From assembly GCF_030068615.1 (NCBI RefSeq), contig NZ_JASJOC010000003.1, forward strand, positions 434,001 through 498,000: 64,000 nucleotides of DNA, written 5' to 3'. A program made the position numbers and the translations under genes. This DNA is from Halostagnicola sp. A-GB9-2 (GTDB taxonomy: Archaea; Halobacteriota; Halobacteria; Halobacteriales; Natrialbaceae). The notes under the pieces were generated by a model. That model saw nothing but the letters and a program-made list of their open reading frames with translations, was not told where the DNA came from and made no database searches. Positions 27,823 to 29,768 of the stretch are shown here, piece by piece; the first letter of the stretch is position 1, and each line of letters starts with the position of its first letter.

Positions 27823-28172
27823 CGTCTCGTACGGCGCGACGAACGGACGGGGCAAAACGATAGCGGTTGACGACTGTCTCTCGTGGCGTGAATTTCGTGC
27901 GCAAAGGTCGTTTTTCAGGGTAGGGTCGAGCGGTAGGCCTGACGCAACAGTTCTCCGGTGGAAGTATGGTCGGGGGTCGTCCGGAATACGCACTACCTGT
28001 GCATCAGATCACGCTGTGTCTGTCGTTGAACCGCAGACGAAACACGTACTATGATGGAATATAACCGTCTGCACCGTGTCGTTCGCTATGAGATCGGACA
28101 GTGGCTTTATAGAACATCCTGGCAGCAACATCGAGGAGGCGAACCGGACGTTGGTACGAGAGAAGAATTCCC
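27823..28172. other. Gene-poor junction before the AT-rich islet
   Basis: This is 350 bases without a convincing gene. The left part has normal GC content, and composition falls sharply at about 28190. A small plus-strand frame (28088-28207, 39 codons, starting MRSDSGFIEHPG and ending SALEE) looks protein-like but overlaps the end of the minus-strand membrane gene. It may be the tail of a gene cut by insertion of the islet. I see no repeat marking the junction. Confidence 0.35.
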
Positions 28173-28478
28173 TCATGGCGCTCGTCGTTTCTGCCCTTGA
28201 AGAATAAGCCAGGCAAGCACAGATACTAGTAAAATCATCACTGGCATACCTGTTGTGGAAAGAACACCAAATATCATTCCTCCAGCAAGTAGATGAACAA
28301 CTATAGCGAGTAATAGTCTAACAAAGTCAATTGTTAAAATACCACTGCGAATCTTATTTCGGATAGAATTTATGAAGATATATAATATGCCAACCCATAG
28401 AATTCCAATTATTCCTAACACAACTGTTTCCATCGATGGGATAATGACAAAACCATCCATCTGTATTATGCTATTCAA
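28173..28478 (-). CDS. Small three-helix membrane protein next to the halocin gene
   Basis: The 101-residue protein is rich in Ile, Leu and Val, with predicted helices at about residues 15-38, 49-69 and 75-93 and a short basic tail (QGQKRRAP). The bases are AT-rich, unlike normal genes in this window. The gene is on the same strand as, and 182 bases downstream of, the halocin C8-like precursor. A role in immunity or export of the archaeocin is an inference from position and size only. I recognise no family. Confidence 0.6.
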   Translation of the reverse strand: MNSIIQMDGFVIIPSMETVVLGIIGILWVGILYIFINSIRNKIRSGILTIDFVRLLLAIVVHLLAGGMIFGVLSTTGMPVMILLVSVLAWLILQGQKRRAP

Positions 28479-28660
28479 TCTAAAATAATAAAAACTTTAT
28501 TAATAGAGACGAGCACCGAATTTTTCACTCGTTTAATCTCATCAAAGTCTATATCCAAGGTATTTTTGAGCAGGTTGGCGGACTTTACGGACAGCACTTG
28601 ATATGACCTGCCCGCATTTCAACTTTCTTGAACTAGACCATGTCAATTACAACCGAACTG

Positions 28661-29590
28661 TCAGAGCATTGTGTCAGCAAGTGCGAAGAGAGAGTTGCAG
28701 AGCGCTTGACCAGAAGCATTACAACCATATCTACTAACTACCTCTGCAGCGACGAGACAAAATCCACCACAAGCAGCCGTGAGTTGCGGATTCAATCTTC
28801 CTTGTCTCACACAGGTACTAACACATTGTCTTCTAGTCAATGAATCTCCATATTCGTCACAAGCCTCTGTGACAATAACTAAACATGTTGGCGGTCCAAT
28901 CGGGCCGATACTTTGGTTCGTGCTAACCTCGTTGTCTGATGCATTCTGCGGTGCAACCGTTTTATTTGTTGAACTAATTGTTTGGACAGCGCGGCCTTCT
29001 GATTGAGATGTACTTGCTGGACGGAGCGATGAAGTCTCTGCAGTATCTTTCGCTTCAAAGGCTACAGTATCCACTTTCATCTCTGAAGGTTGTTCTGAAT
29101 CGGATGACGACTGAACTTCTTCGCTAACTGTTGCAAATGCATTAATGGGAGCTGCTTCGTCTCCATCTTCAGTATTTGCCACAGTTGTAACTATCAGTCC
29201 AAATTCTGTTTCCGACTTCGCACAAGGAATGAACAGAACACGTGGATTAATATCATTAAATTCACTTGCAGTCACCTCATTCTCTTCGAATTCTGATGGA
29301 AGGCTGTCAATTGCCTCCACATCCGCTGCTTGTGCATGTTCGAAGCCAACAGTGAAGCCTCGGTCAGTAATCGATTCCAACAGGTTGCTCGTATCTGGGT
29401 GTTGTTCCAAATTCTCGTAATCTTTCGTAGTTGCTTCCCTGGATGTAATATCGAACACTTCGGACTGCTCCGAAGCCGAGACAGTATTCGTTGCGCCAAG
29501 GCCTGTGACACCCATAACCCCTGCTGTACCTACTGCTTGAAGGAGATTTCTTCGATTTATTCGACTTGAATTACTGTTTTTCTGCGACAT
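28661..29590 (-). CDS. Halocin C8-like archaeocin precursor, Tat-exported
   Basis: The 309-residue precursor has a twin-arginine signal (INRRNLLQAVGTAGVMG, Arg13-Arg14, cleavage probably near SAS/EQ at 38-41). A polar N-terminal pro-region follows to about residue 205, then a Ser/Thr/Asn-rich linker. The last ~76 residues (from 234) hold eight cysteines (236, 244, 256, 260, 274, 278, 290, 298) in hydrophobic, Gly-rich sequence. FCLVAAEVVSRYGC and ALCN recall the tail of halocin C8, a 76-residue peptide made from a 283-residue precursor whose N-terminal part acts as immunity protein. Halocin C8 has ten cysteines, so this is a divergent relative. AT-rich codons and low acidity in the peptide suggest recent transfer. 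Confidence 0.82.
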   Translation of the reverse strand: MSQKNSNSSRINRRNLLQAVGTAGVMGVTGLGATNTVSASEQSEVFDITSREATTKDYENLEQHPDTSNLLESITDRGFTVGFEHAQAADVEAIDSLPSEFEENEVTASEFNDINPRVLFIPCAKSETEFGLIVTTVANTEDGDEAAPINAFATVSEEVQSSSDSEQPSEMKVDTVAFEAKDTAETSSLRPASTSQSEGRAVQTISSTNKTVAPQNASDNEVSTNQSIGPIGPPTCLVIVTEACDEYGDSLTRRQCVSTCVRQGRLNPQLTAACGGFCLVAAEVVSRYGCNASGQALCNSLFALADTML

Positions 29591-29768
29591 TCATGTAGGA
29601 TACTATGGTAATTACCATTAAATGTTTCTATTGAGGTACACTATGTAAGTTATTATTAGGGGAAACACCAAGGTAATATATGGGTTAGTAATAATAACAT
29701 GGTGTCGGACAGTTGATCTTCGTTGGTCAAAGGACACGCGTAAGTGCGGTGCGTTCAAACGCCATACT

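Follow-up and report, generated by a model that had tools for sequence, protein, structure and literature searches.

Does the AT-rich stretch at positions 28173-29590 of the window, the 64,000 nucleotides of Halostagnicola sp. A-GB9-2 DNA analysed here, encode an antimicrobial peptide of the halocin C8 type, and if so, what distinguishes this peptide from halocin C8 itself? The stretch covers two ORFs on the minus strand, the smaller of which (28173-28478) lies downstream of the putative precursor gene and has its stop end at 28173.

The precursor gene and its halocin C8 domain

As proposed in the initial annotation, the larger ORF, read from an ATG (28661-29590, minus strand), encodes a 309-residue precursor composed of a Tat signal, a pro-region and a C-terminal domain with eight Cys. 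The Tat signal region SRINRRNLLQAVG comprises residues 1-40 (29471-29590, minus strand), and the Tat model TIGR01409 matches residues 11-39 with 19.8 bits (cut-off 16.7). It is followed by an acidic pro-region at approximately residues 41-231 (28898-29470, minus strand), assigned by counting D/E versus K/R (38 versus 10 over residues 36-231), and by the eight-Cys domain of about 75-78 residues (approximately residues 232-309; 28664-28897, minus strand), assigned from its TIGR04449 match and a four-helix model. We exclude that this ORF is a chance reading frame, as it has a relative of nearly full length on the Haloterrigena turkmenica plasmid pHTUR02 (WP_012945653.1; 29% identity over query residues 2-302, E 2.5e-28) and the last 77 residues used as query retrieved seven relatives within the family (E 4e-15 to 2e-6).

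A putative TATA box, TTTAAT, was identified 27-32 bp upstream of the ATG (29617-29622, minus strand), a spacing that fits a leaderless haloarchaeal mRNA, and similar boxes precede several relatives of the gene. Between this box and the start codon lies a perfect 14-bp palindrome, ATGGTAATTACCAT (29605-29618), which occurs once in the genome and was not found in those relatives inspected; it could be an operator.

The suspected likeness to halocin C8 was borne out by profile search. The isolated domain scored 25.8 bits against the NCBIfam model TIGR04449 (halocin_C8_dom), above the curated cut-off of 24, and is therefore a member of the halocin C8 family; a whole-genome scan with the same model found the precursor gene independently (24.6 bits). 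Since the full-length precursor scored below the cut-off (20.7 bits), the domain scan and the homologues are the basis for family membership. Concordantly, all seven members of the clade that contains the query matched TIGR04449, with a best value of 2.9e-9, and this model also accepts other members with 6-8 Cys and does not require ten. Assignment of the C-terminal domain to Pfam DSL was rejected, both matches (E 0.047 and 0.0055) being weak and below the cut-off.

Besides the query, the clade comprises proteins from G031 (pHTUR02), G335, G376 (Natrialba aegyptia), G051, G155 and G416, which are 32-42% identical to the query. Among 391 genomes of the class, strong matches to the clade profile were confined to the window's own family, Natrialbaceae, under which H. 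turkmenica is also listed, and the gene is rare even there. WP_012945653.1, named 'halocin C8-like domain-containing protein' at NCBI, carries the same eight Cys as the query and is homologous to it along almost the entire length. When genome contigs were searched, the precursor protein as query gave no match, and an alignment of three clade members matched N. aegyptia only; the same alignment had no match in viral contigs. The seven-member alignment was too diverged for use in scans. Among plasmids, one, pHTUR02, carried a relative.

The insertion site

The AT-richness noted from about 28190 to 29700 was confirmed, with a GC content of 0.37-0.45 over approximately 28.0-29.75 kb compared to about 0.62 on either flank, and finer steps placed the drop at about 28.2-29.7 kb. 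Transfer had been suggested on account of this composition. Taken alone, AT-richness is weak evidence of acquisition, because GC contents between 0.41 and 0.70 occur among halocin C8 family genes. The better evidence is the empty site: blastn homology with four genomes of the same genus stops at 27865-27870 and restarts at 29725-29728 in the three of them that have pdxS near the DUF1405 gene, which delimits an insert at 27868-29724 without counterpart in the four genomes. At the same place, only 72 bp separate the two homology blocks in G002, and different, GC-normal DNA is found in G001 and G003. The locus is a variable site that carries strain-specific cargo. No repeats were detected at the insert ends, no tRNA within the window and no Rfam family near the insert. 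The DNA next to the DUF1405 gene (27867-29725 in the window; L113, L114 and L116, with pdxS adjoining in three congeners) varies between species of the genus.

The precursor gene was absent from all four same-genus genomes searched. Since it is also rare in its family, the precursor is not a conserved cell-surface protein, the reading that the initial annotation had set against its own.

Cysteine pattern and predicted fold

Alignment of 53 non-redundant domains defined 12 Cys columns, labelled a to l; the degenerate row L045 was left out of all counts. Halocin C8 type domains possess Cys a b c d e g i j k l, a second ten-Cys type a b c e f g h j k l, the seven proteins of the query clade b c e f g h j k, and a fourth group a b c e h j k l. 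Two six-Cys members (L050:8017-8241 and L053:8054-8278) retain a b e g k l, corresponding to the order of the three nested disulfides of saposins. Presence of a and l matched in 52 of the 52 rows counted, as did that of c and j, while d and i matched in 51 of 52, with four register-shifted Cys (a in L044, l in L078, f in L032 and L073) assigned by eye in a manner that favours pairing. A domain tree built without the labelled Cys columns, which has few columns and many open forks, supported the query clade with an SH-aLRT of 98 and implied one change for a/l, two for c/j, 6 for d and 5 for i.

Gain and loss of Cys in the matched pairs a-l, c-j and d-i suggests nested disulfides. The simplest reading comprises the pairs a-l, b-k and c-j, followed either by d-i with e-g or by e-h with f-g. 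The b-k pair falls outside the presence test because b and k occur in every row counted, and the evidence for a-l derives from one event and that for f-g from one group. According to this scheme, the query clade apparently lacks the outermost a-l bond and has one disulfide fewer, and its form would be better described as the ten-Cys form minus the a/l pair, with a second pair having moved earlier in the family.

Halocin C8 (HalC8/ProC8) and the query have in common a Tat-signalled precursor and a pro-region, and both end in a Cys-rich domain, similar in length and matching TIGR04449. However, ten Cys in halocin C8 spacing are not present in the query domain, which has eight; it lacks a, d, i and l and possesses f and h. 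As Cys number and spacing differ, the query is not halocin C8 itself. The precursor represents a distinct structural subclass; the family is known and has been annotated before, and it is the subclass that is new. The earlier proposal of a new archaeocin subfamily with different disulfides thus stands in substance, the a/l Cys pair being missing, but the form is shared by a clade of seven and is not unique to this genome.

AlphaFold, run on a 52-sequence alignment, predicted four helices for the query domain (pLDDT 86.1, pTM 0.71). In Foldseek searches, saposin-like proteins accounted for four of the eight top PDB matches (NK-lysin at rank 1, Na-SLP-1 at ranks 3 and 8, caenopore-5 at rank 4), all statistically weak, with query-normalised TM scores of 0.42-0.56, E values of 1.1-3.5 and probabilities of at most 0.51. 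The model of halocin C8 itself was of low confidence (pLDDT 73) and had no saposin match. A search of viral structures gave no significant match. Pfam saposin models did not detect SapB in any of the 52 domains. A PDB profile search with one alignment placed two saposins on top (E 0.6); this was not reproduced with other alignments, which gave either no match or AIRE PHD fingers (E 0.03), and a reversed-sequence decoy had no PDB matches. We do not count the saposin matches at E 0.6 as proof, because a subset of the true sequences matched the AIRE PHD fingers at E 0.03. The query resembles saposin-like pore-forming peptides such as NK-lysin and caenopore-5 in its predicted four helices and nested order of Cys pairs, but differs in disulfide number, and neither sequence nor fold scores are significant. 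A saposin-like fold is a lead from shape and Cys order, and homology with saposins is putative.

Neighbouring genes, possible immunity and proposed mode of action

The smaller ORF, located 182 bp past the precursor stop, has 101 codons when read from TTG and 95 when read from an internal ATG, with three predicted transmembrane segments; by hydropathy and position, it is a candidate immunity protein. It has no convincing homologue and no Pfam or NCBIfam match above cut-off. The only other match in the class (32%, in G141) was discarded, there being no halocin-domain gene nearby. A small ORF with at least two transmembrane segments starting at most 300 bp downstream was found for 23 of 51 family genes and for 28 of 540 control ORFs, and the resulting p of 7e-14 is optimistic, since the call relied on hydropathy only, the choice of controls was mechanical and some loci depend on one another.

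A second type of neighbour is a YdbS/YdbT-type pair of bPH_2 genes, which adjoins four of the six clade genes with both sides visible (L059, L060, L095 and L096) and also two ten-Cys relatives (L038/L058 and L097). The pair is located downstream in L059 (10118-12012), L060 (7321-9221), L097 (8114-10029) and L038/L058, and is divergent in L095 (8417-10330) and L096 (4653-6427). With several bPH_2 matches per genome, adjacency at six loci is therefore judged unlikely by chance. Convergent bPH_2 pairs were also observed beside halocin-C8-domain genes in L062 and L067. In bacteria, YdbST shields Bacillus subtilis from amylocyclicin (PMC8144471), and PH-domain genes lie beside geobacillin 6 (PMC10311245) and enterocin DD14 (PMC7332713). 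The related archaeal loci are like these bacteriocin loci in having a two-gene bPH_2 pair by the peptide gene. Their peptides, however, are Cys-rich and form part of a Tat precursor, in contrast to the leaderless or circular peptides of the bacteria. No bPH_2 pair is present in the window: the gene for WP_012945653.1 is plasmid-borne and followed by such a pair, while the query is followed by the three-segment ORF.

Unlike the pro-region of halocin C8, that of the query is not demonstrably HalI. A 97% match to HalI was obtained with the signal included and fell to 1.7% without it, so that the link between this pro-region and HalI was lost with the Tat signal; the pooled clade profile without signals reached 64%. 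On pHTUR02, an S8 serine peptidase gene (L079:14991-16753) is located about 6 kb from the halocin-like gene and may encode a processing protease.

Taking these data together, we assign a probability of about 0.6 to the reading of the gene product as a secreted archaeocin precursor belonging to the halocin C8 family, which would give rise to a membrane-active four-helix peptide with four nested disulfides. The precursor is judged to be real and probably functional, with antimicrobial activity of the mature peptide inferred.

The strongest competitor, which we regard as unlikely though deserving serious attention, is a secreted, disulfide-rich protein that has kept the fold for lipid-binding, envelope or signalling purposes and is not antimicrobial. 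Saposin-like folds are often used for lipid binding, the halocin C8 domain is widespread (47 of 391 genomes of the class) and few family members have tested activity. However, a patchy, strain-specific distribution at a variable site and strong divergence argue against this reading, and frequent membrane-protein or bPH_2 neighbours fit antagonism and immunity better than housekeeping. Considerably less probable is a decaying halocin that has lost two Cys, its bPH_2 partner and its function. Eight Cys compared to ten and the missing bPH_2 pair are compatible with decay, and signs of degeneration are indeed seen in L045, a distant relative, but the same eight Cys are retained in seven proteins despite their divergence, both Cys of the putative a/l pair are jointly missing in all of them, and in the query itself the reading frame, the Tat motif and the promoter-like box are all intact. 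That an unrelated Cys-rich protein resembles halocin C8 by chance is refuted by the TIGR04449 matches of every clade member and the independent whole-genome hit, although Cys-rich profiles do give chance matches, as with the AIRE PHD fingers, and the domain score is barely above the cut-off.

For the archaeocin precursor we propose the following mode of action. Halocin C8 is exported through Tat and processed to HalI and a peptide of 76 residues (PMC11509114); by analogy, the precursor would be exported through Tat, and a protease cut near residues 225-232 would set free a peptide about 75-85 residues in length. The cutter may be a halolysin-type protease, an enzyme that frees active fragments from other precursors (PMC12893001). 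The mature peptide is predicted to form a four-helix bundle with disulfides b-k, c-j, e-h and f-g, without a-l, and would most likely harm related haloarchaea, whose membranes it would disturb in a saposin-like manner. The producer could be protected by the pro-region, as by HalI in the case of halocin C8, by the downstream three-segment protein, or by both.

More tentatively, and with somewhat less than even odds, the halocin C8 family as a whole may constitute an archaeal branch of saposin-like bacteriocins, characterized by a nested-disulfide four-helix fold, disulfides that are gained, moved or lost pairwise, and immunity of the bPH_2 YdbS/YdbT type. The window gene would then belong to a subclass without the outermost bond, in which a small membrane protein replaces the bPH_2 pair. 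If this is true, the interest of the locus becomes more general. The natural six-, eight- and ten-Cys variants yield a concrete scheme of disulfide pairing that can be put to the test, a hypothesis about the fold and candidates for the immunity genes, and if the bPH_2 link holds, archaea and bacteria may counter similarly shaped peptides with related proteins.
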